NCBI RefSeq assembly: GCF_900103165.1
Contig: NZ_FNKY01000002.1
Location: 1-40,942, forward strand
Origin: Nitrosospira multiformis
GTDB taxonomy: Bacteria > Pseudomonadota > Gammaproteobacteria > Burkholderiales > Nitrosomonadaceae
Direction: 5' to 3'
DNA length: 40,942 nucleotides
A program made the translations under genes and the position numbers. How positions within the stretch are numbered: position 1 is the stretch's first letter; every line of letters starts with the position of its first letter. This document shows, piece by piece, positions 23,264-38,451 of the stretch. The notes beneath the pieces were generated by a model. It was not told where the DNA came from. It did no database searches and saw only the letters and a list, made by a program, of their open reading frames with translations.

Positions 23264-23720
23264 TTACGCTGAAGAACTCCCATACTTTACGCTGAAGAAC
23301 TCCCACTTCACTAAAGTATTTGGATAACCCTGTGGATATAAGAAATTATCCACGCTGAAGAACTCCCAATTGTATCAATCAAATAGGTAATTGATTAAAG
23401 ACAATTATTTTCTCTTATCCCCAAAATCGGACGCTGAAGAACTCCCCAATCCACGCTGAAGAACTCCCAATTGTATCAATCAAATAGGTAATTGATTAAA
23501 GACAATTATTTTCTCTTATCCCCATAATTGGACGCTGAAGAACTCCCAATATACTTGCTGCATAATCCTAAAAAAACCAATGCCAGAGTGCATCTTGACC
23601 GTATTTATCATCTTCCCCCTGTATTTGCCTTTAGTCTTTATCCTCTATAAAACCTGTAGTTGACCAGTGATTATCCACAGATAGCTTATTTCAAGTAGCT
23701 ACAATCTCTTTTTATAATCT
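23264..23720. other. oriV with six iterons and a DnaA box
   Basis: Six 17-bp direct repeats of ACGCTGAAGAACTCCCA begin at 23266, 23289, 23352, 23431, 23453 and 23532 (the fourth reads ...CCCC). Two of them sit in a larger tandem duplication of period 101 bp. A perfect DnaA box TTATCCACA is at 23671-23679, and a near match (TTATCCACG) is at 23347-23355. The region is AT-rich and follows repA. Iterons and a DnaA box together mark a theta-type plasmid origin. Confidence 0.9.
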
Positions 23721-23730
23721 TTTTCAACCC

Positions 23731-23914
23731 CAACCCCAGGTTACCTATAGACAAATCAAAAGTGTTATCCAAGAGAAAAGCGATTTTTTAACCATGTGTC
23801 CAAAGCCCTGCAAAGCAGGGTTTGCCGGTAGGGGCCGGGGCGGTAGCCCTGCCGCTTCGCGGCACCCCGTATCCCGGCAAAGACATGGTTAAAACTAAGA
23901 AAACTATTGAAAAA
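23731..23914. repeat. Repeat A, copy 2
   Basis: Almost identical to 9684-9866, in the same orientation, with the nested arms TTAACCATGT (23788-23797) and ACATGGTTAA (23883-23892) and the same inner hairpins. The two copies bracket the trb-par-rep segment, so homologous recombination between them could loop out about 14 kb containing trb, par and repA/oriV. Confidence 0.8.
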
Positions 23915-23939
23915 TAAGTCTTTCTAGATAATTATCGCT

Positions 23940-24290
23940 GTCACAAACTCCACCAGCCGCCTTTTGCGGTGCGCTTCGCCTGTCATGGCCTGTGATCCGG
24001 AACCTTCGGAGGATTCCGGCGGCGACAATCATCAGATCCAGCCCATTCAAAAGATATTCAGCAGCACGGGATCACCCTGTTGCGTCATTCCCCATTCACT
24101 CCCCCAATCGTCTGCGAGGGGGGCTTGTGGGGGGATAACCAGACCGCAACAGGATAAGCCCGTCTGTTCCTTGCGCATTCACCCCACCTAATCCCAGACC
24201 TTGCCCGTGAAGGCAAGGGGCGCCGCCCCAGGGCGAGGCGAGAAGGTTCGAGCAAGAGGATCTGGTTTTCAGAGCTTCCAGCATTTTAAC
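23940..24290 (+). repeat. Repeat B, copy 1: structured element upstream of ssb
   Basis: An approximately 350-bp sequence is repeated, diverged but clearly alignable, at 35765-36130. Conserved blocks include GGTGCGCTTCGCCTGTCATG and GGCTTGTGG, a CGCCCCAGGGCG hairpin and a final GAGGATCTGGTTTT. Stems are conserved by paired changes: CCGGAA/TTCCGG here (23997-24002 with 24014-24019) against CCGCAA/TTGCGG in copy 2, both with an 11-base loop. It lies 100 bases before ssb. It may be a long 5' leader or a promoter that works on single-stranded DNA. Confidence 0.75.
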
Positions 24291-24391
24291 CAGTAGTGGA
24301 AAAATGCCATTTTAAGCCTTATTATTATATGTTATATTGTATTTGTAGTTCTTTATACATTTTTATATTTGATATTCTTATGGAGGTTGAA

Positions 24392-24787
24392 ATGAGTTCT
24401 CTTAACAAAGTCTGTTTGATCGGCAACCTGGGCAATGATCCTGAGATGCGTTATACGGTGGATGGCGTGGCTATTACCAATCTCAGCATTGCCACAAGTG
24501 AAAAGTGGAAGGACAAGGATGGAAAAAAACAGGAAAAGACCGAATGGCATCGCATCGTTTTCTACAAGGGACTTGCCGAGGTAGCCGGTGAATACCTCAA
24601 GAAAGGCGCAATGATCTACCTTGAGGGCAAGCTGCGCACGCGGGAATGGGAAGACAAAGAGGGCATCAAACGATTCACTACGGAAATTACCGGCAATCTG
24701 CTGAAGATGCTGGATAAGAATCCTATCAAGCATCCGGTGGATGGAACGGCATTGGATGAAGATGAAGATCCGGATATCCCGTTCTGA
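24392..24787 (+). CDS. ssb: Single-stranded DNA-binding protein
   Basis: The 131-residue SSB has the usual OB-fold start (MSSLNKVCLIGNLGNDPEMR), a central basic, aromatic core (EKTEWHRIVFYKGLAEVAGE, GKLRTREWED) and the acidic C-terminal tip ending DPDIPF that docks partner proteins. The start at 24392 has TGGAGG upstream. A longer frame from 24296 is not supported. Plasmid SSBs protect incoming single strands after conjugation. The plus-strand orientation matches the predicted transferred strand as template. An ATP-independent role is assumed. Confidence 0.95.
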   Translation: MSSLNKVCLIGNLGNDPEMRYTVDGVAITNLSIATSEKWKDKDGKKQEKTEWHRIVFYKGLAEVAGEYLKKGAMIYLEGKLRTREWEDKEGIKRFTTEITGNLLKMLDKNPIKHPVDGTALDEDEDPDIPF

Positions 24788-24828
24788 CGACTACCATATA
24801 GATTTATGTTAAGTTTTTCTTCAACAGC

Positions 24829-24849
24829 GCCCGCCGCAAGGCGGGCTTT
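24829..24849 (+). terminator. Hairpin after ssb
   Basis: A perfect 7-bp stem GCCCGCC with loop GCAA and GGCGGGC, followed by TTT. It is a plausible weak intrinsic terminator or attenuator between ssb and the kleE-like gene. Confidence 0.6.
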
Positions 24850-24863
24850 AAAGAGTCTTAAAA

Positions 24864-25160
24864 ATGAACATCACTGCAGCCAAACACGATCCTAAGCAAG
24901 TTGGCTTAAATGAAGGCAATCAGAAGATCAGAAAGATGATCTCGGTTTTGCTATCTTTGCTGGCGCGCGTCCTGTGGTTGTTCCTGGTCATGACTTGGCC
25001 TATTCTGCGCCGGGTGTTGGTGATCGACATCACTTTCCTCTTCTTGCGGATGTCCGTCAATATCGCGCGGCACGGCCCATATTTCGACTGGATCTTTTGG
25101 GGTCATTTTGTTCTATACGTTGCCTTGATCTGCATCATTATTCCCCATAAATCAAGATAA
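24864..25160 (+). CDS. KleE-like small membrane protein
   Basis: The 98-residue protein has a charged N-terminus and two hydrophobic stretches (VLLSLLARVLWLFLVMTWPI and FWGHFVLYVALICIIIPHK). The middle reads LRRVLVIDITFLFLRM and HGPYFDWIFWGHFVLY, similar in arrangement to KleE of the IncP kle operon, a stable-inheritance gene of unknown mechanism. The position just before korB agrees with IncP control regions. The match is by recollection of the pattern, so it is moderate only. Confidence 0.5.
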   Translation: MNITAAKHDPKQVGLNEGNQKIRKMISVLLSLLARVLWLFLVMTWPILRRVLVIDITFLFLRMSVNIARHGPYFDWIFWGHFVLYVALICIIIPHKSR

Positions 25161-25201
25161 GAAGAGTGTAATGCAGCTAAACACTTAATATATTCCTTTT
25201 A

Positions 25202-25223
25202 ATTTGCTAGACTTGCAGCAAAT
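25202..25223 (+). promoter_or_regulatory. Inverted repeat upstream of korB
   Basis: Arms ATTTGCT and AGCAAAT flank an eight-base centre, 21 bases before the korB start. It could be an operator, with KorB or another regulator acting, or part of the promoter. No consensus match to the KorB operator is seen here. Confidence 0.4.
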
Positions 25224-25244
25224 CAAAAGGATACAGGTTGAGGG

Positions 25245-26150
25245 ATGATTAAATCGAGAGCAGGGAGCGTAAAGAAATCAGATCGTGTCCAAGCTTCCCC
25301 AGAAGCACATGCGCATCCAATTGATATTCCGCTGGATCTGATAGAGGAAGATCCCAACCAGCCTCGCACCGTCTTCGATCCGCAGCTGCTCAACGAGCTG
25401 GCCGATACCATTCGGCAGCGAGGGGTTAAAAACCCGATATCCGTGCACCATCATCCAGAAAAATCCGGCAGGTATGTCATCAACGACGGCGCGCGGCGCT
25501 ACCGCGCCTCACATCTGGCCGGCAAGAAAACCATCAAGGCATTTATCGACGTTGACTTCACCAAGATTGACCAGATCATCGTAAATGCCCATCAAGCGGG
25601 TTTTACACCGAGAGAATGGGCAATCCTCATCGAGCAGGAGGAAAAAAAGGGCAAGTCCAGACGGCAGATCGCGCGCGAGCTGGGCATGTCCGCGCCCCAT
25701 ATCACCAGCCATGCCGCGTTGTTGCGCTTGCCAGATTGCATTGCAGACGCTTTCAACTCCGGGCGGTGCCAGGATGTGACTGCCGTGAACCATCTCGTCG
25801 TCGTTTGGCGGCAATATCCAGATGACGTGGAGTTCTGGCTGGAAGATCCGACCGTCGAAATCACGCGGGCATCCATCGCGCGACTACGCGCGTTCCTGGA
25901 CAGCCGCGACCAGTCCGAACAACCGGTCGGGCCAGCCGCCGTGGCAAAGGAACGCAAAACGCGCATACCCAGTCCATTGAGGCTGCACAAGCCGATAGTC
26001 AGAATTCGATACGAAGGAGAGCCCGCACAATTGCTGTTCAACCGCCGGCCCTCACAGCCCGGCTATGCGTGGATTAGAAGCGAGAACGGCAATGAAAGGG
26101 AAGGCGCCATCGAAAAAATGCAGCTTACAGAGCTGAGCGAAGGCAAATAA
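25245..26150 (+). CDS. korB: KorB/ParB-family partition and repressor protein
   Basis: This 301-residue protein has a ParB N-terminal domain (IPLDLIEEDPNQPRTVFDPQ, then YVINDGARRYRASHLAGKK), a helix-turn-helix middle (KSRRQIARELGMSAPHITSH) and a C-terminal SH3-like dimerisation domain (KPIVRIRYEGEPAQLLFNRR). In IncP plasmids KorB both partitions the plasmid and silences promoters at a distance together with other Kor proteins. Its usual partners IncC and KorA are absent from the neighbouring genes, so its partition partner may be the ParA at 21321. A GAGGG lies before the ATG. Confidence 0.93.
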   Translation: MIKSRAGSVKKSDRVQASPEAHAHPIDIPLDLIEEDPNQPRTVFDPQLLNELADTIRQRGVKNPISVHHHPEKSGRYVINDGARRYRASHLAGKKTIKAFIDVDFTKIDQIIVNAHQAGFTPREWAILIEQEEKKGKSRRQIARELGMSAPHITSHAALLRLPDCIADAFNSGRCQDVTAVNHLVVVWRQYPDDVEFWLEDPTVEITRASIARLRAFLDSRDQSEQPVGPAAVAKERKTRIPSPLRLHKPIVRIRYEGEPAQLLFNRRPSQPGYAWIRSENGNEREGAIEKMQLTELSEGK

Positions 26151-26173
26151 AAGCAGAAGATGAAGGGCAACTA

Positions 26174-26539
26174 ATGTCCCAGGACACGGCACCGAAAAAA
26201 CAGCGCATTCTCGTCATGAACGGACAACGTTTGATCCAAACCGATGAGGATGGAAAGTGGGTCACGCAAAAGGTTGGAAAGGCGGGAAGCCTCAAGCCTG
26301 GCATTTATGCTGCCTACATGGCAACGGATGCGGACAAGGCGCTGCAACATACCGGAATCGTGTTTCACATAGACGAACGCTATGTATACCTGCAAGAGCC
26401 GCATGGGAACACGCGGCATCCGCTGAAAGCGTTCGATGCGGTCCCGGAAAACGGCAAGACGATTTGTATCACGTATGAAGCGGGCAGGGCGCTGACCACG
26501 GCGGTGGTGTTGAGCCCCACGCACAAGCTGACTCGCTGA
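26174..26539 (+). CDS. KfrB-domain small protein
   Basis: The 121-residue protein carries a C-terminal segment (TGIVFHIDERYVYLQEPHGN to GKTICITYEAGRALTTA) that matches the KfrB domain found in some plasmid accessory proteins and in relaxase fusions. The N-terminus (RILVMNGQRLIQTDEDGKW) is not recognised. It follows korB by 23 bases and is probably in its operon. IncP has korF and korG at this place, which are not similar. The function is unknown. Confidence 0.5.
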   Translation: MSQDTAPKKQRILVMNGQRLIQTDEDGKWVTQKVGKAGSLKPGIYAAYMATDADKALQHTGIVFHIDERYVYLQEPHGNTRHPLKAFDAVPENGKTICITYEAGRALTTAVVLSPTHKLTR

Positions 26540-26556
26540 TTTCGTGCAGCCACAAG

Positions 26557-26973
26557 CTAGCTTACCCAAAGCACGGTGGCGGCTGCGACCAAGGACAGCA
26601 TGGATATAATGGCACTGAGTCCCGCATAGCGCCGCCAATGCAGGAAATCCGTCATCAACTTATGGTTTGCCGCTTCGCCCTCCAATTTGAATTCTTGGAA
26701 AAGCCGTTGTGCTTCCTGCCGCAAGGCCAGCTTCGCGGCCACGGTGGATTCACGTATGGTTGCATCCAGACGGTTTGCGGACTGGTCCTGAAGTTGTGTC
26801 GACAAGGTTTTCATGGCGGTTAAATACTCTTCAAGCAAGTTATGTTGAATGCCCATACTTGCCTCCATCACCTGCCGATTGATGGTGTATATCATCAGTA
26901 TAGGATCGTCGCGATCCAGGATAATGCCATGCCTGGCCATGACCTCCTGGATGATTTTATCTATGCTAGTCAT
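26557..26973 (-). CDS. traM: TraM-like conjugal transfer protein
   Basis: This 138-residue protein is largely helical and ends in a single membrane helix (AIISMLSLVAAATVLWVS). Features are IILDRDDPILMIYTINRQVM near the start and a long charged coiled region. It follows traL with an ATGA overlap, the IncP traK-traL-traM order. TraM is needed for efficient transfer, but its mechanism is not known. Confidence 0.85.
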   Translation of the reverse strand: MTSIDKIIQEVMARHGIILDRDDPILMIYTINRQVMEASMGIQHNLLEEYLTAMKTLSTQLQDQSANRLDATIRESTVAAKLALRQEAQRLFQEFKLEGEAANHKLMTDFLHWRRYAGLSAIISMLSLVAAATVLWVS

Positions 26974-27698
26974 GCAAGTTCAGCCGCGGTGTCGCACTGT
27001 GTATAAAGCCGATCACGCACGATCTTTAGACGCTGGCGAGTCATGATCGGCAGCGATGCAAGCTGCAGCGACTCATCGAAGGTGCGCCGCGCTTGCAGCA
27101 TGTCCGACAAGTCGCGGCCATACGTTTCCTGCTTCAGTAGCGGAATTTCAACAATGGCGGCTACCTGCTTGCGATGATCCTTGCAGGCTTTCATATCCTG
27201 GAATTGCTTGCCCTCATGCTCGATCGGTCCCCAGTAGGGGTTGAGCCAAACGACAAATACCGCATCCTCAGGAAACTGCGCGGCCATCTGCGAAAAACCG
27301 CTCACGGTATCACGCAGGGCCTGGCCTCCGGTGACGACGGTATGCACCATCATTTGGTGGCCCATTTCCTTCAGTAACGCCGGTACCTGATTGGAAATGA
27401 GATAGTGCGATAGCGGTACGAAAGAGCTGGCGCCGTTGTCGATGATGACATCAACCTCGGCCGGCGCGAGCAATTCCACCAGCGCATCGAAATTGCGCGG
27501 GTTGATCTCGTCGCCTTCCATGATTTGAAGGCGCTGGACTTCGAGCGCCTTATAGCCATGAAAGGTGGCATTGACCGGGTCGGTATCGACGCACAGGGGT
27601 TTTTGCCCCCTGGCCGCCTTGTACTGAGCGAGCACGGAGGCAATGAAAGATTTGCCCACGCCGCCCTTGCCTTGCAAAACCGTGTGTATTTTAGCCAT
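26970..27698 (-). CDS. traL: TraL-like ATPase
   Basis: The 242-residue protein has the ParA-type Walker A (GKGGVGKS, residues 10-17), PLCVDTDPVNATFHGYKALE, IIDNGASSFVPLSHYLISNQ and VVWLNPYWGPIEHEGKQFQ, all closely matching the RP4 TraL sequence. ATG 27698 overlaps the traK stop (TGATG). It lies between traK and traM on the minus strand. Proposed roles are in DNA processing or transfer-complex positioning, not proven. Confidence 0.93.
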   Translation of the reverse strand: MAKIHTVLQGKGGVGKSFIASVLAQYKAARGQKPLCVDTDPVNATFHGYKALEVQRLQIMEGDEINPRNFDALVELLAPAEVDVIIDNGASSFVPLSHYLISNQVPALLKEMGHQMMVHTVVTGGQALRDTVSGFSQMAAQFPEDAVFVVWLNPYWGPIEHEGKQFQDMKACKDHRKQVAAIVEIPLLKQETYGRDLSDMLQARRTFDESLQLASLPIMTRQRLKIVRDRLYTQCDTAAELA

Positions 27699-28063
27699 CA
27701 AAGTATATCCTCATCGTTAGGGGTGGAAGAAAAAGTAAAGCCATCCGACCTGGATGCCGCGGCTGGATGGCCCGTGGCGATTGCCTTGGCGGGCGAAGCC
27801 AGCAGGCTCATTGCCTGCTTGTGGCTCCTGCCCGCGTTTTTGAGAACCAGGCGCTTAACCTGGTTGCAGAAAGTGTTGTAGCTTGCCGCGATCTTCTGTT
27901 CTGCATGCAGCGTCTCCCAAATCTGGTACACCGACCACCCATCGTTCAACGCTTGCTGAATTTCTTCACGTTGCGCCAGGAATGCAGCGAGATTGCGCGC
28001 GTTCCGGCTGGATACTTTGTCCTTGACTCGAAGCGAAATGCGGAATGAAAGGTCTTTTTGCAT
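27698..28063 (-). CDS. traK: TraK oriT-binding protein
   Basis: TraK binds and bends oriT DNA, helping expose the nick site. The 121-residue protein has NARNLAAFLAQREEIQQALN, SVYQIWETLHAEQKIAASYN and ends in GFTFSSTPNDEDIL, the C-terminal GFTF..TP motif also present in RP4 TraK. It is the first gene of the leftward traK-L-M operon, starting 150 bases from the predicted nick. Confidence 0.9.
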   Translation of the reverse strand: MQKDLSFRISLRVKDKVSSRNARNLAAFLAQREEIQQALNDGWSVYQIWETLHAEQKIAASYNTFCNQVKRLVLKNAGRSHKQAMSLLASPAKAIATGHPAAASRSDGFTFSSTPNDEDIL

Positions 28064-28096
28064 AATTCATATTAGATTAATCGAACATTTATTAAT

Positions 28097-28124
28097 AATA
28101 TACACTTATTTTGTGGTTGCACAA
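28097..28124 (-). promoter_or_regulatory. Predicted traK promoter
   Basis: On the minus strand a -35 TTGTGC and -10 TATATT are separated by 16 bases. It faces the traK-L-M operon and lies beside oriT, so relaxosome proteins could compete with RNA polymerase. Confidence 0.5.
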
Positions 28125-28194
28125 CCCATCTTTTTTTGGTAACTTGGATTCAGCAGCGAAATAAAGCGGGAAAAATAATTCCCAGTGAAAAACG

Positions 28195-28320
28195 TTATTG
28201 CGAAGAGACAGGGCAAGATATGTGAAGTGGGCCTACCCGCAAGCGGGTATTCCACACTTCACTCCCGCCTTATTCGCACGATGTGCTCAACGGGGATCTT
28301 GCCCTGCGGGGCAACCATAA
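28195..28320. other. oriT, IncP (RP4-like) type, with predicted nick 28213/28214
   Basis: The region closely follows RP4 oriT: GTGAAGTGGGCCTACCCGC, a hairpin TACCCGC-AA-GCGGGTA, CACTTCAC, CTTATTCGCACGATG, then TGCTCAACGGGGATCTTGCC. An inverted repeat of CAGGGCAAGAT (28210-28220) and ATCTTGCCCTG (28297-28307, approximate) spans the site. By analogy the nick is on the minus strand at ATATCTTG^CCCTG, between 28214 and 28213, so the transferred strand is the minus strand moving leftwards. The traK-traJ spacer is the expected position. Confidence 0.93.
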
Positions 28321-28350
28321 TGGACGGCTGCCGCCGTCAAGGAAAAGGAA

Positions 28351-28737
28351 ATGGATACCGACCGCGCGCCGACCAGGAAGGGCAGCACACCCATCAAGGT
28401 GTACTGCCTTCCAGCCGAAAAGGACCAGATCAGCCGGAACGCGCAGGCTGCCGGGCTGAGCGCGTCGATGTTTCTGCTGCACGTGGGCGCTGGCTACGAG
28501 GTGCGAACCATCCTCGACTACCAGCGCATCGACGACCTGGCCAGGATCAATGGCGACCTGGGACGGCTGGGCGGGCTCCTGAAGCTGTGGCTTACCAACG
28601 ACGAGCGGCTGCGCCAAATGAAAGCCACTGAGCTGCGCGCCGTCTTGAACAAGATTGAGGCCAACCAGGAAGCCATGCGCGCTATCATGCGCGCCGTGCT
28701 CCGGCGCGAGCCGGGCAGGGGAAGGGAGGAGGCGTGA
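28351..28737 (+). CDS. traJ: TraJ relaxosome accessory protein
   Basis: The 128-residue protein binds oriT with a ribbon-helix-helix domain and guides TraI to the nick site. PTRKGSTPIKVYCLPAEKDQ, GYEVRTILDYQRIDDLARIN and GDLGRLGGLLKLWLTNDER match RP4 TraJ closely. It is the first gene of the rightward operon after oriT, and its stop overlaps the GTG start of traI. Confidence 0.95.
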   Translation: MDTDRAPTRKGSTPIKVYCLPAEKDQISRNAQAAGLSASMFLLHVGAGYEVRTILDYQRIDDLARINGDLGRLGGLLKLWLTNDERLRQMKATELRAVLNKIEANQEAMRAIMRAVLRREPGRGREEA

Positions 28738-30668
28738 TCGCCAAGCACATTCCAATGCGCGCGGCACGGCGCAGCAGCTTCCGGGATCTCGTGGCCTACA
28801 TTACGCAGACGAAGGACAAGGCCGTGCGGGTGGGCGCGGTGCGGGTGTCGAATTGCCATCAAGAGGACGCCGGCGATGCGGTCAATGAAGTGTTGGCGGT
28901 GCAGCTCCAGAACCGGCGCGCATGCAGCGACAAAACCTATCACCTGCTCATCTCTTTCGATGCGGGCGACCATCCGTCGCCGGAGGGGTTGCGCGACATC
29001 GAAAGCAAACTGGCGGACGCCTTGGGGTTCGCGGGCCACCAGCGGGTGAGTGCCGTGCACACCGATACCGACAATCTGCACATTCATGTGGCGATCAATA
29101 AAATCCACCCGAAGGCGCTCACCATCCACAACCCGTACTGCGACTATAAAACCTTGGGCGAAGTCTGCCAGCGCCTGGAACAGGCCCACGGGCTGGCGCC
29201 CACCAATCATAAGACAATTGCGCGGGGCGCGCGCAACGCCGCCCTGGACATGGAACATACGGCAGGGGTGGAAAGCCTGTTGGGATGGGTCAGGCGCGAG
29301 TGCCTTGACGATTTAAGGGCGGCCCAAAGCTGGCAGTCATTGCACCAGGCGTTGGGCAAATCCGGCCTTGCGCTGCGGGCGCAGGGCAACGGATTCATCA
29401 TTACCGACCAGGAGGGCAGGGCAGTCAAGGCAAGCTCCATTGCGCGCGACTTGTCCAAAACCCAGCTAGTAAAGCGGCTGGGCGCGTTCGAGCCCGGCCG
29501 CCCAGCACAGATCCAGTCTGCCCGCTCCTATCGGATGCGGCCCGTATTGCCCCAACCGGGGAGTACCGTGACGGATGATCTCTACCAAAGCTATCGGGCC
29601 GAGCAGAGCGAGAACCGGCAGGCACGGGTCAAGATTCGCCGCGCGCTGCGCCAACAAAAGCAGGATCAGCTCTCGGCGGCAAAGAAGAAAGCCCGGATCA
29701 GGCGCGGCATCATCCGGGAACTGAATTGCGACAGCCTCTCCCGGCGCGCGCTCTATTACCAAGCGGGCGCAGCGTTGCGGGCAGAATTGCAGGACATTTA
29801 CGGCCAGCACCAGTCGCAGCGCGAACATCAGCTTGCGCAGTCCAAGCCCCAGGCATGGTTCGACTGGCTGGCCGACCGGGCGGCGGCGCACGATGCGGCG
29901 GCACTGCAAGCCTTGCGCCTCCGCAGCCAAAAGGCGGCACGGCGCGCGGACAGCCTCATGGGGACTATCCAAGCGGGCAGGGGAGGCGAAAAGGCAGACG
30001 GAATGCAGGTTGATAGCGTCACCCACCAGGGCACGATCATCTACATCAAGAAAGCATCCGCCATCCGCGACAGCGGTCACCGCCTGGAAGTATCGGAGGA
30101 CATCACCCAGGATGCTTTGGAAATCGCAATAAGCATGGCGCTGCGGCGTTTCGGGCGGAACATCACCATCGAGGGCGACAGCGCCTTCAGGGATCGCGTA
30201 CTGCATACCGCCAGCGCCTTGAAACTGGATATCGCCTTTACCGACCGTACGGCGAAACAGGCGCGCACGGACGTTTTACAGGAAAAACCGGTGCTGCCGC
30301 CTCAGGCCGAGACTGAACCTGTCAAACTGCATAGGCACTCCGCTAGCCATGTAGCGCCACCGCGCCAGGACAATCCCGGAGAAGCCGCCGCGCGGCGCTA
30401 CATCGCGGAACGCGAAGCGAAGCGGCAACTCATCGCCGGCATCCCGAAGCACGTCCTTGGCAATCCCAGCCTGCTTGCGGAGATCCGCTACGCGGGCTGG
30501 CGAAAGGTGGATGGGCAATTTCTGCTGCTGGCAGCCACCCGCATGGACGAAGTGGCGGTGATTCCGGTTGACGCCACCACGGTCGCGCGGGCCGCGGGGA
30601 CGCGGCTGGGCGCGGCAATTCACCTGGACGGCAAATGCCTGAATGAATCCAGGGGATTAAAATTGTGA
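28734..30668 (+). CDS. traI: TraI relaxase (MOB-P)
   Basis: TraI nicks oriT and stays attached to the 5' end of the transferred strand. The 644-residue protein begins MIAKHIPMRAARRSSFRDLV. Catalytic Tyr22 (AYIT), Ser74 (HLLISFD) and His116 with His118 (DTDNLHIHVAINKIHP) are at the RP4 positions. The N-terminal 300 residues are the relaxase domain. A C-terminal LPD7-like segment (about 440-510, including SGHRLEVSEDITQDALEIA) and a basic tail follow. The GTG start overlaps traJ, with GGGAGGAGG upstream. RP4 TraI is longer (732), and this one still looks complete. Confidence 0.95.
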   Translation: MIAKHIPMRAARRSSFRDLVAYITQTKDKAVRVGAVRVSNCHQEDAGDAVNEVLAVQLQNRRACSDKTYHLLISFDAGDHPSPEGLRDIESKLADALGFAGHQRVSAVHTDTDNLHIHVAINKIHPKALTIHNPYCDYKTLGEVCQRLEQAHGLAPTNHKTIARGARNAALDMEHTAGVESLLGWVRRECLDDLRAAQSWQSLHQALGKSGLALRAQGNGFIITDQEGRAVKASSIARDLSKTQLVKRLGAFEPGRPAQIQSARSYRMRPVLPQPGSTVTDDLYQSYRAEQSENRQARVKIRRALRQQKQDQLSAAKKKARIRRGIIRELNCDSLSRRALYYQAGAALRAELQDIYGQHQSQREHQLAQSKPQAWFDWLADRAAAHDAAALQALRLRSQKAARRADSLMGTIQAGRGGEKADGMQVDSVTHQGTIIYIKKASAIRDSGHRLEVSEDITQDALEIAISMALRRFGRNITIEGDSAFRDRVLHTASALKLDIAFTDRTAKQARTDVLQEKPVLPPQAETEPVKLHRHSASHVAPPRQDNPGEAAARRYIAEREAKRQLIAGIPKHVLGNPSLLAEIRYAGWRKVDGQFLLLAATRMDEVAVIPVDATTVARAAGTRLGAAIHLDGKCLNESRGLKL

Positions 30669-32530
30669 ACCCCGGCCCGAACAATGCCATCGGTCCGCAA
30701 GTGCGCGGAGAGAGCGGAAACCGCCCGCTCTTGATGCTTGCGCTGTTCCTGCTGGTGCTGGTCGTGAGCCTAGCCGCCGCGACACAGTATCTCGCCCATG
30801 CTCTTCAATACCATGCGGCATTGGGCGCCAACGTGAGCCATCTCTACGCCCCCTGGAAGATTCTGGAATGGGCAAGGCAATGGCCGGGCCGCTATTCCGA
30901 CCAGTTCAGCATGGCAGGCAGCATAGGGCTCATGACCGCAGCATTTGGCCTGATCCTGCTCATGGGCTACAAAAAACACTTGGCACAGTCCAGTAGCGTG
31001 AGTTCCCGCTTACACGGGTCGGCGCGCTGGGCAGACAAGAAGGACATCCTGGCTGCTGGCCTGCTGCCACGCAACGCTTCGTGGCTGGACAGGTTGAAGG
31101 GGAAAAGCAGGGAAGAGCAGCGTGCATCGGTATACGTGGGCGCCTGGCTGGACAAGCACGGGCGGCAACACTACCTGCGCCACAACGGCCCGGAACACGT
31201 GCTGTGCTACGCGCCGACGCGCTCTGGCAAGGGCGTGGGGCTGATCGTGCCCACTTTGCTGTCGTGGCCCGAGAGCGCCGTCATTACAGACCTGAAAGGG
31301 GAGCTATGGGAATTGACCGCCGGATGGCGCAAGCTCCATGCCCGCAACCGAGTATTGCGCTTCGAGCCCGCATCAGTCGGCGGCGGCGCACACTGGAATC
31401 CGCTAGACGAAATTCGCATCGCCAGCGAACAGGCGGTAGGTGACGTGCAGAATCTCGCCACCCTGATCGTCGATCCGGACGGGCGGGGATTGGAAACCCA
31501 CTGGCAGAAATCGGCGCAATCGCTGCTGGTGGGGCTCGTCCTGCACGCGCTTCACCAAGCGCTACACGATGGCAAGCCTACGCCCGCCATTGCTGATATC
31601 GACGCAATGCTGTCCGACCCCGACCGCGAAATTGGGGAATTATGGATGCAGATGTTCGCTGCGCCGATCCCGGACGGCACGCATCAGCGCATCGTTGCCG
31701 CCACTGCGCGCGACATGATGGACCGGCCCAAGGAGGAAGCTGGCTCGGTACTGTCCACCGCCAAATCCTATCTGTCGCTCTACCGCGACCCGGTGGTGCG
31801 GGACAATACCGCGGATTCGCATTTTCGGATAGCAGACCTGATGCACCACGACAATCCGGTGAGCCTCTATATTGTCACCCGCCCAGCCGACAAGACCCGG
31901 CTGCAACCGTTGGTGCGCATCCTGCTCAACATGATTGTTCGGCTGCTGGCGGACCGCATCGAATTTGAGCATGGGCGGGCAAAACCCGTATACAAGCACC
32001 GTCTATTGATGATGCTGGATGAGTTCCCCAGCTTGGGCAAGCTCGGAATCCTGCAAGAGTCGCTGGCTTTCCTCGCCGGGTATGGGATCAAGTGCTACCT
32101 GATCTGCCAGGACATCAATCAACTTCGGTCAGGCACCACCGGCTATGGGCGTGATGAATCCATTACCTCGAACTGCCACATCCAGAGCGCTTTTCCGCCC
32201 AACCGCGTAGAAACCGCCGAGCATTTATCGAAACTTACGGGGCAGACCACCATTGCCAAAGAACAGGTCTCCAAGAACGGCAAGCAGACTTCCCGCACGA
32301 TGCAAGAGGTTCAACGTTCGCTGCTGACCGTGGATGAATGCCTGCGCATGCCGGGGCCGGTCAAGAGAACGCAGGATGGACAGGATGTGATCGAGAAAGC
32401 CGGTGACATGATTATCTATGTCGCCGGATGCCCGGCCATTTACGGCAAGCAGCCGCTTTATTTTCAGGACAGGATTTTTCAGGCGCGAGCGGCAATTGCC
32501 GTGCCGATCCAAAGCGATCGACTGATATAA
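30665..32530 (+). CDS. traG: TraG/VirD4 coupling protein
   Basis: This 621-residue ATPase brings the relaxosome to the mating channel. It has N-terminal membrane helices (LLMLALFLLVLVVSLAAATQ, and around LMTAAFGLILLMGYKK), Walker A APTRSGKG (183-190), Walker B LLMMLDEFPSLGKLG with Asp452 and Glu453, and the conserved DLKGELWELTAGWRK and ICQDINQLRS stretches. A GTG start overlaps the traI stop. IncP traH, nested in traI, was not looked for. Confidence 0.95.
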   Translation: MNPGPNNAIGPQVRGESGNRPLLMLALFLLVLVVSLAAATQYLAHALQYHAALGANVSHLYAPWKILEWARQWPGRYSDQFSMAGSIGLMTAAFGLILLMGYKKHLAQSSSVSSRLHGSARWADKKDILAAGLLPRNASWLDRLKGKSREEQRASVYVGAWLDKHGRQHYLRHNGPEHVLCYAPTRSGKGVGLIVPTLLSWPESAVITDLKGELWELTAGWRKLHARNRVLRFEPASVGGGAHWNPLDEIRIASEQAVGDVQNLATLIVDPDGRGLETHWQKSAQSLLVGLVLHALHQALHDGKPTPAIADIDAMLSDPDREIGELWMQMFAAPIPDGTHQRIVAATARDMMDRPKEEAGSVLSTAKSYLSLYRDPVVRDNTADSHFRIADLMHHDNPVSLYIVTRPADKTRLQPLVRILLNMIVRLLADRIEFEHGRAKPVYKHRLLMMLDEFPSLGKLGILQESLAFLAGYGIKCYLICQDINQLRSGTTGYGRDESITSNCHIQSAFPPNRVETAEHLSKLTGQTTIAKEQVSKNGKQTSRTMQEVQRSLLTVDECLRMPGPVKRTQDGQDVIEKAGDMIIYVAGCPAIYGKQPLYFQDRIFQARAAIAVPIQSDRLI

Positions 32531-32571
32531 GCATATTTCTGTATATCTATATTTCTGTATTTACTAAAAAG

Positions 32572-33105
32572 ATGGTTGTGTCACCGCATATCAGCCGTGC
32601 CTTTGCCATCGGCGGCATCGGTTTCATGGTGCTCGGATTGCTGTGTTATGCAGCCGGCTTGCGGGTCAATACCACCCGGAGCATTCCGGTGGGCCTATAT
32701 TGGATGACCGACGAGGCGGTAGCCAGGGGCCAATATGTGCTTTTTTGCCCGCCGCAAACGCTCCTGTTCGAAGAGGCGAAACGGCGCGGATACATTGGAG
32801 CAGGATTCTGTCCGGGAAATTATGGCTACATGATGAAGCGTGTGTTGGCCGCAGCCGATGATCGGGTGGTCATAGCAGGGGAGGGCGTCAGCATCAATGG
32901 GAAACTTTTGCCTGCCAGTGAGCCGTTCAAAGCGGATAAAGCGGGCAGGGCAATGCCGCATATCTCATCGGGCACCTACACCCTGGCAAAGTCAGAATTG
33001 CTGCTAATGTCGGATGGGAGCCCTACCTCTTTCGATGGGCGCTACTTCGGGGCAGTGGATGCATCTCAGGTCAAGGGCGTAATCCAGCCGCTACTTATAT
33101 GGTGA
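32572..33105 (+). CDS. traF: TraF pilin peptidase (S26 family cyclase)
   Basis: TraF removes the C-terminus of TrbC and joins it head to tail. The 177-residue form begins at ATG 32572 with a membrane helix (AFAIGGIGFMVLGLLCYAAG). Catalytic Ser37 (RSIPVGLYWM) and Lys89 (YMMKRVLAAADD) occupy the RP4 positions exactly. An upstream frame would overlap traG with no ribosome binding site. It closes the traJ-I-G-F operon, and no traE or traD genes follow. Confidence 0.93.
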   Translation: MVVSPHISRAFAIGGIGFMVLGLLCYAAGLRVNTTRSIPVGLYWMTDEAVARGQYVLFCPPQTLLFEEAKRRGYIGAGFCPGNYGYMMKRVLAAADDRVVIAGEGVSINGKLLPASEPFKADKAGRAMPHISSGTYTLAKSELLLMSDGSPTSFDGRYFGAVDASQVKGVIQPLLIW

Positions 33106-33138
33106 GGCGCACCCTGTAGCTTGCTTCAACACGGCAAT

Positions 33139-33409
33139 CCCGCTCACCTGCGGTCAACGGGCCGGGCTCTATGTGCTCTGCACACCGGGCCTGTGGTCCC
33201 GGCCATGCGGTAACGATCCCTTTTGCGACTATCCCATCTAGCAGCCCCGCCCGTTCCGGGCCGCGCTGTTCGTCAGAACTAATTCCATCCTATGCGGAGC
33301 GCTTTGCGCTGCGCTGTAGAGCCAAGCCGCGTTTCATTGCAAGGGGCGCGTTGCGCCTTACCTTTTCGTTGTTCAGGCCCAGCCCTTGCAATCTCATTCC
33401 TTCGTCTTG
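33139..33409 (+). repeat. Repeat C, copy 1: structured element before kfrA
   Basis: A roughly 270-bp sequence alignable to 34333-34665. The shared block runs from CCCGCTCAC through GGGCCGG, CTCTATGTGCT, CACACCGGGCCTGT and CGATCCCTTTTGC to CCCTTGCAATCTCA, with the stems TGTGC/GCACA and CCCG/CGGG conserved around different loops. It ends 19 bases before the kfrA promoter. Like repeat B it stands upstream of an accessory gene. Function unknown. Confidence 0.75.
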
Positions 33410-33427
33410 GCCAGCTGCCCAAAATAC

Positions 33428-33455
33428 TTGACAAACACAAATTATTTGATAAAAT
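33428..33455 (+). promoter_or_regulatory. kfrA promoter
   Basis: A perfect -35 TTGACA (33428-33433) and a -10 TAAAAT (33450-33455) are separated by 16 bases, in an AT-rich stretch before the kfrA ribosome binding site (GAGGGGG). Confidence 0.7.
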
Positions 33456-33502
33456 AACATAAGATAAAAAGTAATTACTTTATTAAATATGAGGGGGCCA
33501 CC

Positions 33503-34183
33503 ATGGGACGCAAAGCACTCCACACGCAGGAACAAGTTTTCGAAGCAGCCGATCATCTGGCGGCAAGCGGGCGGGAAGTCACGCCGACCACCTTGCGCGA
33601 TGCGCTGGGCGGGGGCAGCCTAACTACCATTTACCGGCACCTCGAAGCTTGGGAAGCCACCTGTAAGGCGGTGCCAGCCCCGGTCAGCATTCCCATGCCG
33701 GATGCCGTAAGACTGGCCTTCGAGCAGGCTTGGCAAGCGGCTGCCACCGAGGCCGGCAAAGAAATCGCGGTCATCCGCGAAAAAGCGGATACCGAAATCA
33801 AGGCGACGCACCGGCGCCTGGAAGAAGCGGTGGCGGCTATCGGTCAACTCGAAAGTGAGCAGCTGGCCGACGCCGACCGGCTGGAGGGACTGGAAACCAC
33901 GCTGCTCAAGGAACGGGAAATCGCGCGGCAGGCTGTGATCGATGCCGCCACCCGGGAAGCCGGGCTTGCGGCCACTGTGGTCGAGCTAAAACATCACAGC
34001 GGCGAGGTGGTCAATAAACTGACGATCAGCAAGCAGGCCATCGAGGCCGAGTTATCCGAAATACGCAAGGAAGTTCGTGCGTTGACTGAAAAGCTCGGCA
34101 AGGCCACCGGCGCCGCCGACGCGTTGCGCAGCCAGGTTGCCGAGCAGCAAGCAACTATCCGCGACTTATCCGGGCGGCGCTAG
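33503..34183 (+). CDS. kfrA: KfrA-like DNA-binding coiled-coil protein
   Basis: The 226-residue protein starts with a KfrA N-terminal helical DNA-binding domain (VFEAADHLAASGREVTPTTL, GGGSLTTIYRHLEAW) and continues as a long alpha-helical coiled coil to the end (about residues 75-225). KfrA in IncP plasmids autoregulates and supports stable inheritance, perhaps by forming filaments. It has its own promoter and GAGGGGG ribosome binding site, and does not seem to be cotranscribed with traF. Confidence 0.9.
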   Translation: MGRKALHTQEQVFEAADHLAASGREVTPTTLRDALGGGSLTTIYRHLEAWEATCKAVPAPVSIPMPDAVRLAFEQAWQAAATEAGKEIAVIREKADTEIKATHRRLEEAVAAIGQLESEQLADADRLEGLETTLLKEREIARQAVIDAATREAGLAATVVELKHHSGEVVNKLTISKQAIEAELSEIRKEVRALTEKLGKATGAADALRSQVAEQQATIRDLSGRR

Positions 34184-34332
34184 CCGGGCGGCAGGGGTAG
34201 CGCCTTAGGATATGGAATAAAAAAAGATCATGCCGGTTCTTATTTAAATGGCGGCTGGTGACACGACTGCTTGTGCTACCTCTATTTGGATAAAGATCTA
34301 GGCAAGGTATTAACCCAACCTTCATGCGGCGG

Positions 34333-34665
34333 CCCGCTCACACATTGTCAGCGGGCCGGACTCTATGTGCTGAGCACACCGGGCCTGTAGTCCCGGCCAT
34401 CCGATAACGATCCCTTTTGCAAATACCTGTCTAGCAGCGTCACCTGCCCGGTCACGCTGACCATCGCGGCTAACCCCACGCGCAACGCTTCACGTTCCGC
34501 TTCATCCGCTCTCACTAGCCCACCCGCTTACTACCCCGCAGTCGCTTCATTCGGGTATCGCCAAGCACTAAGACCCTAGCCAAGCCGCGTTCCATTGCAA
34601 GGGTGCGCTGCGCCTTGCCCTCTCGTTGTTCAGTCCAGCCCTTGCAATCTCACTCTCCCGTCTTG
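34333..34665 (+). repeat. Repeat C, copy 2, in a 624-bp gene-free gap
   Basis: Second copy of repeat C, with about 60 extra bases in the middle relative to copy 1. Shared pieces include CCCGCTCACAC...GGGCCGG, CTCTATGTGCTGAGCACAC and AAGCCGCGTTCCATTGCAAG. It occupies most of the gap 34184-34807 between kfrA and the methylase-like gene. Nothing else is visible in that gap. Confidence 0.75.
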
Positions 34666-34807
34666 TCATCCCGCCGTGCTTCAACGGCGAAACCCTCAGC
34701 GAAGCGATGTTTTACAGCAGTAAGCAGGTTGGCCAAGTCTGTTCGAGCAAATCAGTTCAAGACCTGGCTCGCCCCTAACAAAACGATGACCGGAAGGGAG
34801 AGGATCA

Positions 34808-35620
34808 ATGGCGACGAACTACATTGGATTGAACAAACACCAGCAGGAGTTTGCCAAGCTGGTGCATGAAAACAGCCGCAGCCGTCATCCCTATACGGTT
34901 TTCAAGGATTTCTGCGAGCTGGCCGCGCTGTCGTTTAGCAACGCAGTTGACCGGGCGCAATTTGAAATACGGGAGGCACGGTATATGCAGATCGTCAAAG
35001 GCTATAAGCCGGAAGAAGTTGCGCGCTTCCCCAAGATGCTGGCCTGTCTCACGCTATCGCTGGAAGAGGGCATGAGTGATTGCCTCGGTCAGTTATTCAT
35101 GGCGCTTGAGCTGGGAAACAGTGGGGCAGGGCAGTTTTTTACGCCTTATCACGTATCTGTTCTGATGGCGCAAATACTCTGCGGCGATGCAGGTCAGGTA
35201 TGTAAGGAAAGGGGATTCGTGTGCGTGATGGAGCCGGCAGTCGGGGCAGGGGGGATGGTGATCGCCACCGCGGAAGCCTTCGCGGAGGAAGGCATCAATT
35301 ACCAGCAGGCGATGCATGCTACTTGTATCGACATCGATGCAACCGCCGTACACATGGCTTACGTGCAGTTGTCGTTGCTGCACATTCCGGCAATTGTCGT
35401 GCATGGCAATACGCTATCGATGGAGCAATGGGGATACTGGTTGACCCCCGCGCATGTGCTGGGGTTTTGGGATGCGAGGCTCAAGCGGGACGTGAGCGCC
35501 CGACAGGATTGGGGCGAAAAAGCCGATCATGCCGTACCGCCTATGCCGGAAGCGGTTGTGCAGCAGGTGCGCGAGGTTGTGGCGGTACAAACCGGCACGG
35601 GGCAATTGACGTTGTTTTAA
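34808..35620 (+). CDS. N6-DNA-methylase-like protein lacking motif IV
   Basis: The 270-residue protein has the start of an N6-adenine methylase: GQFFTPYHVS (108-117) and a SAM-binding motif EPAVGAGGMVIA (142-153), then CIDIDATAVHMAYVQLSLL. Where catalytic NPPY/NPPF is expected there is HGNTLSMEQWG, so the activity is doubtful. Similar proteins are carried by several broad-host-range conjugative plasmids with unknown role. A GGGAGAGG precedes its ATG, and repeat C copy 2 lies upstream. It may bind SAM or DNA without methylating. Confidence 0.75.
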   Translation: MATNYIGLNKHQQEFAKLVHENSRSRHPYTVFKDFCELAALSFSNAVDRAQFEIREARYMQIVKGYKPEEVARFPKMLACLTLSLEEGMSDCLGQLFMALELGNSGAGQFFTPYHVSVLMAQILCGDAGQVCKERGFVCVMEPAVGAGGMVIATAEAFAEEGINYQQAMHATCIDIDATAVHMAYVQLSLLHIPAIVVHGNTLSMEQWGYWLTPAHVLGFWDARLKRDVSARQDWGEKADHAVPPMPEAVVQQVREVVAVQTGTGQLTLF

Positions 35621-35630
35621 GGTATCCGGT

Positions 35631-35663
35631 GCAGGGCGTCTTGCCTGCCAATAGACGCCCTGC
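35631..35663 (+). terminator. Stem-loop after the methylase-like gene
   Basis: A perfect 10-bp stem GCAGGGCGTC and GACGCCCTGC around a 13-base loop, 11 bases after the stop codon. No T-run follows, so termination is plausible rather than certain. Confidence 0.6.
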
Positions 35664-35764
35664 AAGGCAAGGGCAGGGCACCCGCGCCCCCGGCCACGGC
35701 CAAGCCGGCGCGCGCGGCCAGGACTGAACGGATTTTCCTGGTCAAGAAAATTGTCCCTGCTTGC

Positions 35765-36130
35765 CGCTGTCACACGCCCCGCCAGCCGCTCAGACTTCGT
35801 AGCGGTGCGCTTCGCCTGTCATGGCGTGTGATCCGCAACTGCTGCGCAATTGCGGCCGCAGCAATCATCAGGCCTTACCCCATTTAAAACTTTTTAGCGG
35901 CACGGGCCGATCCCGTTGCGCCATCCCCCCATCAATTCCCCCCAATCGCTTGCGAGGGGGACTTGTGGGGGATAAGCAAACCGCAACAGGAAAGGCCCGG
36001 TTGTTCCTTCGCCTGCCCACCCCACCCATTCCCAACCCATGCCCGTGAGGGCAGGGCTATTCCCCACTCCCGTCGCCCCAGGGCGAAGCGAAGAGGTTCG
36101 AGCGAGAGGATCTGGTTTTAAGACTCTCTT
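35765..36130 (+). repeat. Repeat B, copy 2: structured element before a small gene
   Basis: Diverged copy of 23940-24290. Stem CCGCAA/TTGCGG (35833-35838 with 35850-35855) replaces CCGGAA/TTCCGG of copy 1, and TGCCC/GGGCA (36040-36044 with 36049-36053) replaces TTGCC/GGCAA. These are compensatory changes that keep the structure. It ends about 27 bases before the start of the next gene, closer than copy 1 to ssb. Confidence 0.75.
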
Positions 36131-36156: not shown

Positions 36157-36462
36157 ATGGAACAAATCAAGCAACCGTTATTTTCACTGGGGCAGGTGGT
36201 GGCAACACCCGGCGCACTGGATAAGACCCATCCAGTGTGGATGGCGAATTGTCTTGCGCGGCATATGCGAGGCGATTGGGGTTCGGTGGACGAGGAAGAT
36301 ATCGCCACCAACAATGAAGCGGTGCGCCTTGGGTTTCGTGTCTTATCGGCCTATCCGATTGACGAGACCCAGCCCTGTGAAGGCTTTGGCGACAATACGC
36401 TGTGGATCATCACGGAAGCCGATCGCAGCGTGACCACCTTTCTTTTACCCAACGAATACTAG
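36157..36462 (+). CDS. Conserved mobile-element protein, function unknown
   Basis: The 101-residue protein has the pattern LGQVVATPGALDKT, a helix with LARHMRGDWG and DEEDIATNNEAV, then ITEADRSVTTFLLPNEY. It recalls a small family that is common on integrative elements and plasmids, with a conserved end and no known activity. The ribosome binding site is TTGGAGG. It lies directly after repeat B copy 2 and before the ParB-domain gene, in the same direction. An establishment role in the recipient is inferred from context only. Confidence 0.65.
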   Translation: MEQIKQPLFSLGQVVATPGALDKTHPVWMANCLARHMRGDWGSVDEEDIATNNEAVRLGFRVLSAYPIDETQPCEGFGDNTLWIITEADRSVTTFLLPNEY

Positions 36463-36531: not shown

Positions 36532-38451
36532 ATGAAAAACACCCACGTTACGCAAGCCATTGAAACCGGCAACATTCAGCGCATTGCCATCAAGAATCTT
36601 GTTAAATCGCCTCTGAATGTCCGCAAGAAAGAGAGCGGCGGTATAGGCGAACTGTCCGCTTTGATTGCCGCGCAAGGGCTGATACATAATCTGATCGTCA
36701 CCGAGCAAAAGAAGAAGAACAAAAAGACCGGAAAATATGAAGTCGTCGCCGGTGGGCGGCGGCTGGACGCGCTGAATCTGCTAGTGGCCGAGGAGCGGCT
36801 ATCAAAAGAGAGTGAAGTGAATTGCCGCGTGGTGGGTGCGGAAGAGGCACTGGAACTCAGTCTTGCGGAAAACTCCGGACGCGAAGCCATGCACCCCGCC
36901 GATCTGGTCATGGCCTACCGCAATCTGACTGAAGCGGGACTGTCGCCGGACGAGATTGCCCCGCGCTTTGGCGTATCTCCCCTGACCGTCAAGCGTTACC
37001 TCAAGCTCACCCACGTTTCCCCGGCCATCTTCAAGCTGTATGCCGAGGATGAAATGAATTTTGAACAGATATCCGCGCTGGCGCTGACCGAAGACCACGA
37101 ATTGCAGGAGCGCATCTGGAACAGTACGCCCGAATGGCAGCGCAGCGGATCAAACTTCCGGCGATTGATAACCGGAACCGAGATCGACATTCAGCGCAGC
37201 CCGCTTGCCAAGTTTGTCGGATTGGAGAAATATGAGGCTGCAGGAGGGTTGGTGCGCCGCGACTTGTTCGGGAAAGAGGGCGAAGGCTATATACAGGATA
37301 CAGAGCTTTTGGAATCGCTTGCGCTGGAAAAACTCAATCAGGCGATTGAAGCCATCAAGGGCGAGGGCCATGCGTGGGCGCAATGCCACACTACGTTCGA
37401 CCATTCGGACAGGGCAGAATTCGTGAGGGCGCGAACCAGCAGGCGTGAACCGACAGCCGAAGAACAAGCCGCAATGGATGCGCTGGATGCTGAAATGGAA
37501 GCCCTCACGGCCGAATTTGAGGGATACGATGAGGAAATGGACGAGGACGGCGAAACCTATGCCGCGATTGAAAAGAAGCATGACGTCGTACAGGAAAAGA
37601 TAGCGGCATTGAATGAATCGCTGGAAGAGCCGGACGCCACCGACCTTGCCATTGCAGGTGTCATCGTTACCATTGACCATGCAGGGGAATTACGCATCGA
37701 GCGGGGCTTGATCCGGAAAGAGGACGTGAAGAAACTGCCCAAGGCGCAGGGAGGAGAATCAGGGTTGGCAGGAAGTGAGCAGAGCGAAACGGCGAAACCT
37801 GTGCACTCGGAAAAACTCACGCGCATGTTGACGGCTCACCGTAGCGCAGCGATTCAGGCGCAGATCATGGACCGGCCGGAAATTGCGCTGGCGGCACTCG
37901 TGCATCGGCTGGCACAATCGGTTTTCTCGAACGGCTACCTGTCGAATCGCATCGTTCAGGTCAACATCGAGCAAACCTATCTCAAGAAGGACGCAGAGAA
38001 CATCGAAGAGAGCCGTGCAGCCAAGGTAATCGAGGAAAAGCGGGCGTATTGGACAGCGCGCATCGAGGCAACAGGGCAGGGCGGCAAGACGCTGTTCGGG
38101 TGGCTGTTGGAGCAAGACCTTGCGGATTTGCACGACCTGCTGGCGTTTTGCACGGCGGTTTCGATCAATACCGTATCGGGGCGGGAGCATGCGCCATCGG
38201 ATGACGTGACGGCGATCATGGCCGCCTTGAATCTGGACATGGCCGACTGGTGGGAACCCACGCCCGAGAATTATCTTTCGCACGTATCCAAAGATCGGAT
38301 TATTGAAGTAGTGGGAGAGGCGGTTTCCCCTCAAATGGCGCAGACCATGACAAAGATGAAAAAGGGTGAACTGATCGAGTCCTCGAATGCGAAACTGTCG
38401 GGCTTGCGCTGGTTGCCGGATAATCTCAAAGTGGAGGCGCTGCAGGAATAA
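36532..38451 (+). CDS. Large ParB/Srx-domain protein (YubM-like leading-region type)
   Basis: The 639-residue protein has a ParB N-terminal domain (IKNLVKSPLNVRKKESGG, VVAGGRRLDALNLLVAEERL, then LSLAENSGREAMHPADLVM) and a KorB-like helix-turn-helix (SPDEIAPRFGVSPLTVKRYL). A long helical C-terminal part contains an acidic stretch near 320-350. This arrangement matches large ParB-nuclease-domain proteins encoded in the leading region of F-like and many other conjugative plasmids (YubM). The nuclease label is by family only. It probably acts early in the recipient, but its role is unproven. It ends at a strong hairpin and is the last recognisable element gene. Confidence 0.82.
   Translation: MKNTHVTQAIETGNIQRIAIKNLVKSPLNVRKKESGGIGELSALIAAQGLIHNLIVTEQKKKNKKTGKYEVVAGGRRLDALNLLVAEERLSKESEVNCRVVGAEEALELSLAENSGREAMHPADLVMAYRNLTEAGLSPDEIAPRFGVSPLTVKRYLKLTHVSPAIFKLYAEDEMNFEQISALALTEDHELQERIWNSTPEWQRSGSNFRRLITGTEIDIQRSPLAKFVGLEKYEAAGGLVRRDLFGKEGEGYIQDTELLESLALEKLNQAIEAIKGEGHAWAQCHTTFDHSDRAEFVRARTSRREPTAEEQAAMDALDAEMEALTAEFEGYDEEMDEDGETYAAIEKKHDVVQEKIAALNESLEEPDATDLAIAGVIVTIDHAGELRIERGLIRKEDVKKLPKAQGGESGLAGSEQSETAKPVHSEKLTRMLTAHRSAAIQAQIMDRPEIALAALVHRLAQSVFSNGYLSNRIVQVNIEQTYLKKDAENIEESRAAKVIEEKRAYWTARIEATGQGGKTLFGWLLEQDLADLHDLLAFCTAVSINTVSGREHAPSDDVTAIMAALNLDMADWWEPTPENYLSHVSKDRIIEVVGEAVSPQMAQTMTKMKKGELIESSNAKLSGLRWLPDNLKVEALQE

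Follow-up and report, generated by a model that had tools for sequence, protein, structure and literature searches.

The described system which comes closest to the element treated here is EGeRS1 of the plasmid pLS20, which is located before ardC and four more operons and blocks read-through; no promoter was found in it, and its authors regard it as not being a single-strand promoter and call its mechanism unknown to them (PMC8708921). Single-strand promoters are represented by Frpo and ssi of F and ColIb-P9, of which Frpo is stimulated by SSB (PMC11541004), while the conserved CUP repeats of IncN plasmids start the operons of an ard-type regulon (PMC5371602), and an overshoot of ardC and ssb is reported for R388 (PMC3937220). 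Further structured elements are STAXI, a repeated pseudoknot in Enterobacteriales for which the authors weighed action as RNA against action as single-stranded DNA, and the radC motif, which is listed as a structured motif in a table of the same report (PMC2864571). Here we describe repeat B, a structured element present in two copies on a stretch of 40,942 bp (the window), which represents contig 2 of a two-contig genome of Nitrosospira multiformis and is IncP-like, as indicated by a traJ-II RNA and genes for TraI, TraG, KorB, and KleE. B is very probably a shared cis-regulatory element of the plasmid establishment regulon. We class it among the establishment-gene regulatory sequences, where EGeRS1 resembles it most in design but shows the opposite strand polarity, with no sequence match seen between the two; no description of B was found in the open-access literature, and one published in a subscription journal could have been missed.

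The two copies were delimited by BLAST at 23935..24273 (copy 1) and 35764..36123 (copy 2), both on the plus strand, with nhmmer placing their 3' ends at 24269 and 36119, respectively. They are 76% identical (E 4.7e-62 when the genome is searched with copy 1 by BLAST), which bears out the original prediction of a duplicated and diverged element of about 350 bp. The compensated stems named there are all present as well: hairpin H2 consists of CCGGAA and TTCCGG around an 11-nt loop in copy 1 (23997..24019) and of CCGCAA and TTGCGG around a loop of the same length in copy 2 (35833..35855), and the stem of hairpin H6 changes from TTGCC/GGCAA (24198..24219) to TGCCC/GGGCA (36036..36056), with a GTGA loop in both copies. 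Between them lies a large hairpin at 24044..24169 and 35880..36009 (68.3 and 82 bits, respectively, with model R2, which was built from the B family itself with both window copies in the training set). Copy 2 further shows a C-tract linker at 36019..36038, which a motif scan reads as a G-quadruplex motif of the transferred (minus) strand, hairpin H7 at 36067..36095, and a conserved 3' tail, GAGCGAGAGGATCTGG, at 36100..36115. It is preceded by an upstream hairpin H0 (GGATTTTCC...AGAAAATT, 35730..35752, recognized by eye), which occurs in most full copies of B and was not seen at copy 1. All these parts are given for the plus strand. Three additional B fragments are found in the chromosomal contig 1 of the same genome, two of which resemble the halves of one insertion-split copy.

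The genes behind the two copies are also those predicted. Copy 1 precedes ssb (24392..24787, plus strand; PF00436, 1.2e-34), whose ATG lies 118 nt past its end, and copy 2 precedes a small gene coding for 101 amino acids (36157..36462, plus strand), the homologues of which stand behind B elsewhere, followed by a ParB-domain gene coding for 639 amino acids (36532..38451, plus strand; PF17762 above and PF02195 below the cut-off). A wider count covered 46 B stretches, broken ones included, on 31 contigs or contig parts of Nitrosospira, pNRS527, and Diaphorobacter, and an establishment-type gene was recognized behind about 30 of them (our own count). These genes are ardC (PF08401, PF18818), the 101-amino acid gene plus a ParB-like gene, ssb, radC plus an N6-methyltransferase gene, and genes for DUF932 and DUF4160 proteins. 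Intact copies in these three groups mostly end 24-43 nt from the start codon, and the spacing is usually 19-50 nt over all B-bearing genera. In other families, a ParB-like gene follows at 34 nt (37% identity) and ardC at 19 nt (61% identity; both by blastp or by eye), and a confirmed ssb gene follows twice at 50 nt; Ralstonia carries an N6-methyltransferase-like gene about 80 nt past B, and Eleftheria an N6-methyltransferase gene at 50 nt and a DUF932 gene at 72 nt. In Janthinobacterium, B stands before radC. Past the 3' tail, the sequence tracks the gene rather than the element, while B stays the same (judged by eye). Both radC and DUF932 genes belong to the leading-region gene types. A report on single-strand promoters lists genes for anti-restriction, methyltransferases, and SSB among these types (PMC11541004). 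The 101-amino acid family, which stands repeatedly between B and a ParB-like gene and gives no matches in Pfam, NCBIfam, or PADLOC, is a candidate establishment or anti-defence protein.

A view on the distribution of B shows that it is centered on one genus. When 125 genomes of the family were searched with copy 2 as query, 15 gave matches, with up to six per genome, and all of them fall into the own genus (Nitrosospira/Nitrosovibrio), which accounts for 23 of the genomes searched. Scanning the GTDB contig collection with a pattern yielded 28 stretches. Of these, 23 carry Nitrosospira or Nitrosovibrio in their titles; among the five others, those from Ralstonia sp. A12 and from a Herminiimonas metagenome-assembled genome (MAG) were confirmed (nhmmer, about 1e-30), and those from a Thiogranum MAG and two betaproteobacterial MAGs were not (best E 1.2e-4, short stretch). 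The single matching contig in IMG/VR was not confirmed either, and phage records contained no match to the 3' part of copy 2. Plasmid searches added Diaphorobacter (two copies), Eleftheria terrae (three copies), and Janthinobacterium, where BLAST indicated four places on the plasmid, one stretch of which was examined. A covariance model was positive in six of 399 genomes of the order, which we take to be Burkholderiales in GTDB, and four of these lie outside the genus, in four different families. A class-wide search with a plain DNA query gave only three matches in 369 genomes and none convincing outside the genus, namely the own genome and two matches of 27-31 nt taken as chance, and a blastn search of copy 2 against 72,556 plasmid records (E 0.01) returned three records, only from Nitrosospira and Diaphorobacter. 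B appears to be either rare outside Nitrosospira or too diverged for detection by BLAST. In Rfam, B stays below the cut-off of every family, with the Janthinobacterium copy also scanned; the match to Betaproteobacteria-1 (19 bits, cut-off 49.4) was rejected as due to chance. As separate observations, inserts with related transposase genes split B in two genomes (2997-4590 of L080, G100 contig 39, and 8791-13394 of L084, G000 chromosome), cutting the large hairpin at the identical model position, and L136 is perhaps a third case. The transposases are presumably IS110-like, as judged from their sequences, and the shared position suggests a site-specific target. The first hairpin of B seems, by eye, to be tandemly duplicated in the distant copies of Janthinobacterium (L147, 20118-20423) and G835 contig 33.

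Across 31 full copies, B is about 340-420 nt long and consists of the upstream hairpin, a first hairpin, H2, the large hairpin of about 130 nt, H6, H7, and the conserved tail. Both strands fold more stably than shuffled sequences (mean z -4.4 for plus and -4.3 for minus, against 40 dinucleotide shuffles each); the minus strand of copy 2, folded as single-stranded DNA, reaches z -4.4, with 0 of 100 shuffles as low. The pairing of the large hairpin is kept in Ralstonia, Herminiimonas, Diaphorobacter, Janthinobacterium, and Eleftheria despite quite different arm sequences. When arms were swapped between 35 distinct sequences, the own arms gave -35.7 kcal/mol versus -27.1 kcal/mol for swapped ones (z -12.8, 0 of 10000), and the number of double-change cells in a plain alignment of 34 sequences was 61 versus 28.9 after shuffling (0 of 500); two Nitrosospira copies missed by the anchor pattern were left out of these cross-genus tests of the large hairpin. 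In the corresponding swaps of single helices in the 31 copies, the counts out of 5000 were 0 for the upstream hairpin, 1-4 for the first hairpin, 38-49 for the inner part of the large hairpin, 0-1 for the segment pairing just 3' of it, and 187-283 for H6, while H2 (445-461) and H7 (299-764) were not significant. Compensated H6 stems include TTGCC/GGCAA, TTTCC/GGAAA, and CGCCC/GGGCG, and the H6 loop is GTGA (GNRA-type on the plus strand) in 37 of the 39 copies with H6, with no H6 match in five of 44 segments.

As to orientation, B lies on the strand of the relaxase gene in 28 of 28 copies on the 16 contigs with both B and a relaxase match. Some of these matches are fragments or weak (28% identity), and the contigs are not independent, representing about six distinct backbones by our judgement; Janthinobacterium and Eleftheria were left out of the count because no relaxase domain was found there (the Janthinobacterium record being covered in parts only). 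In the window, traI (28734..30668; PF03432, 8.9e-33) shares the plus strand with both copies, and the traJ-II RNA or origin of transfer (oriT) region at 28211..28313 (plus strand; RF01760, 89.7 bits) contains GGGCAAGATA, the complement of an IncP-type nic. By inference from RP4, from which we take the position of nic within this region, nic lies on the minus strand, in agreement with the claim that the transferred strand is the template of the genes behind B. The same follows from the nic regions of eight IncP-type contigs with 18 copies (seven placed by pattern and pNRS527-1 by eye; in G107, a loose pattern has one additional match on the opposite strand), a result which covers IncP-type contigs only. 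A chromosomal remnant devoid of a relaxase gene, G114_C2_589000, may be discordant, with traL and traM sharing the strand of B. If contig 2 is taken as a circular plasmid, as was done for all distances from nic in the window, about 4 kb lie between nic and the entry of copy 1 and about 33 kb between nic and that of copy 2, and on pNRS527-1, likewise assumed to be circular, all three copies enter past 46 kb (about 46-56 kb). Thus, four of the five copies measured on the two plasmids enter 33-56 kb after nic, and B does not appear to be restricted to the leading region, with copy 2 lying outside if the contig is circular. Position, structure, gene set, and orientation of B are shown by these results.

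Two features speak for the plus strand as the folding strand, namely the GTGA loop and the proximity to the start codon. The lower folding energy of the minus strand in all 31 copies was dropped as evidence, because z is lower on the minus strand in just 11 of them and the alike z-scores of both strands trace the difference to composition. Likewise, raw counts of G-T versus A-C mismatches by helix (7:40 for H2, H6, and H7 together, 62:28 for H4 and H5) could be skewed by arm-specific constraint, and the strict mismatch count was therefore relied on instead, which is given further below. Read on the minus strand, the C-tract before H6 corresponds to a G-quadruplex motif in 27 of 31 copies, and the plus strand has such a motif in none of the 31; both ssb-linked copies lack it. 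Promoters were sought by consensus scans, which, like the open reading frame (ORF) calls, are crude. From 75 nt upstream of B through to the gene, a sigma-70-like pair of -35 and -10 hexamers occurs on the plus strand in only one of 31 copies, and on the minus strand in six of 31, compared to about 2.9 in shuffles; no such pair was found by a consensus scan of copy 2 and its flanks. The single-strand promoter put forward in the original prediction is not supported, and the alternative named there, a structured leader, accounts for the data no less well.

B resembles EGeRS1 in several respects: both occur in several diverged copies per plasmid, contain many inverted repeats, and stand as structured repeats directly before the ribosome-binding sites of ardC or other establishment operons (PMC8708921). 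EGeRS1 differs in occurring on Bacillus plasmids, in its length of 420-750 bp, and in having the transferred strand as non-template, whereas this strand is the template for B (PMC8708921). No Bacillus record is found among the plasmid matches of copy 2, a comparison in which EGeRS1 itself was not aligned. The best explanation overall, which we offer tentatively and slightly short of calling it probable, is an establishment-regulon element acting as a structured leader or read-through gate; taken alone, this mechanism, which is modelled on EGeRS1, is more tentative still. We infer that transcription would pass into B, stop, and be opened transiently. Transcribed B would fold into the large hairpin plus the smaller hairpins, the C-rich and G-poor linker together with the stems would halt transcription arriving from upstream in established cells, and the establishment genes would be opened briefly after plasmid entry.

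A number of results weigh against this explanation. No establishment-type gene was recognized behind about 16 of the 46 stretches, mostly partial, chromosomal, or at contig ends, and both ssb-linked copies lie about 117 nt from ssb, with a promoter-like site in between in the window (24297..24325, plus strand; consensus match only, 9/12). No terminator-like site was found by scanning the window copies, and rough ORF calls place a divergent ORF next upstream of B in 10 of 31 copies, which means that nothing obvious reads into B there; for seven of these ten, no sigma-70-like site was found in up to 400 nt upstream. The original prediction of covariation among more homologues holds at the level of helices, but not column by column: with a tree-based null, 31 Nitrosospira copies gave no column pair at E<0.05, and restricting the test to the predicted structure gave one pair, with slid controls giving 0-2. 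In the large hairpin, the own arm ranks first among all partners in just 12 of 35 cases, double changes occur in 16 of 34 pairs while one slid control reaches 18, and the further pair types (42) remain at the level of shuffles (40.1; 128 of 500). Finally, G-T and A-C mismatches at strictly flanked stem positions are equally frequent (25:24; 14:14 in the large hairpin), as opposed to 22:5 in the same count for 22 RNase P sequences from the own genus. Pairing is therefore not clearly selected in RNA, which counts against RNA pairing as the only constraint, although other mismatches are commoner in B (54 versus 8 in RNase P) and alignment noise may therefore blur the comparison.

The absence of an RNA-like bias in the stem mismatches would suit a promoter of a new type on the transferred strand, which would fold and be transcribed before the complementary strand is made, like Frpo, and be silenced in the duplex. 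Frpo, ssi, and B are alike as inverted-repeat elements before ssb or anti-restriction genes, with the transferred strand as template and several copies per plasmid (PMC11541004). The constant relaxase-strand orientation, the template role of the transferred strand on the eight IncP-type contigs, the near absence of duplex sigma-70-like sites on the plus strand, and the G-quadruplex motif on the transferred strand only would all be expected, and ssb, the product of which stimulates Frpo, is among the B genes (PMC11541004). However, the Frpo stem carries -35, -10, and UP elements (PMC11541004), whereas consensus scans reveal none conserved in B, the stems of which are GC-rich. B is also longer than Frpo (PMC11541004) and apparently not restricted to the leading region, with four of the five measured copies entering far from oriT if the plasmids are circular. 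Moreover, the GTGA loop belongs to the plus strand, the ssb-linked copies lack the G-quadruplex motif, the remnant G114_C2_589000 may be discordant, and EGeRS1 combines a like architecture with the transferred strand as non-template (PMC8708921). No enterobacterial record is among the three plasmid matches, the Frpo sequences themselves not having been aligned. We consider such a promoter possible but unlikely. Slightly less likely is its more specific form, a transferred-strand element of new architecture (a GC-rich hairpin of about 130 nt plus, for the majority of copies, a G-quadruplex motif on the transferred strand, devoid of -35 and -10 elements), which would express establishment genes of IncP-type and mobilizable Burkholderiales plasmids from the entering single-stranded DNA at any plasmid position.

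A duplex operator or promoter, which would be freed from a plasmid repressor upon entry, is improbable. It would follow the model of IncN CUP, which resembles B as a conserved repeat starting each operon of its regulon in one orientation (PMC5371602), and would agree with the overshoot of ardC and ssb in R388 (PMC3937220) and with the promoter-like site before ssb. But in CUP operons a duplex promoter is accompanied by a putative ArdK site (PMC5371602), whereas no shared sigma-70 site is found in or beside B by consensus scans, and large compensated inverted repeats would be unnecessary for an operator. Still less probable is that B, repeated around the plasmid, serves as a single-strand initiation site from which the complementary strand is synthesized: the presence of several copies on one plasmid and the large hairpins formed by single strands would fit, but such sites need not abut start codons, and the gene link points to expression control. 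A site of recombination or insertion which shuffles gene cassettes is very improbable, because B is upstream in one orientation wherever a gene was recognized and no recombinase is constantly beside it (blastp maps), notwithstanding the sharp B-gene junction, the differing gene partners, and the related insertions at the same position. STAXI is structured, as is B, and is located near ssb, integrase, topoisomerase, or anti-restriction genes (PMC2864571), but B scores below the Rfam cut-offs of both STAXI and the radC motif.

Some other repeats of the window should be mentioned. A repeat of 160 nt (9707-9866 and 23754-23913, 99% identical), which looks like a miniature inverted-repeat transposable element with apparently inverted ends (by eye), has its second copy immediately before B copy 1, at the place taken by H0 in other copies. 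Two 99-nt units of 98% identity at 23348-23547, past repA, possibly form an origin region. A second diverged structured repeat (A) occurs at 33139-33409 before orf33503 and at 34333-34665 before an N6-methyltransferase gene. The 5' module of repeat A is also present 45-148 nt upstream of B in seven of the 31 full Nitrosospira copies, and A and B may make up one longer regulatory unit.

The entry of RP4, the model IncP plasmid, is accompanied by induction of its leading-region genes, for which the authors of the study report not having identified single-stranded promoters (PMC7314908). B represents a compact, repeated, and alignable element in plasmids related to RP4, and its polarity opposite to that of EGeRS1 offers a direct test of action as single-stranded DNA versus RNA. 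It may also be employed as a marker, since genes found behind B, such as the 101-amino acid family, are candidates for a role in establishment or anti-defence. As B keeps its fold while its sequence changes, it probably helps to time the establishment genes of these plasmids.

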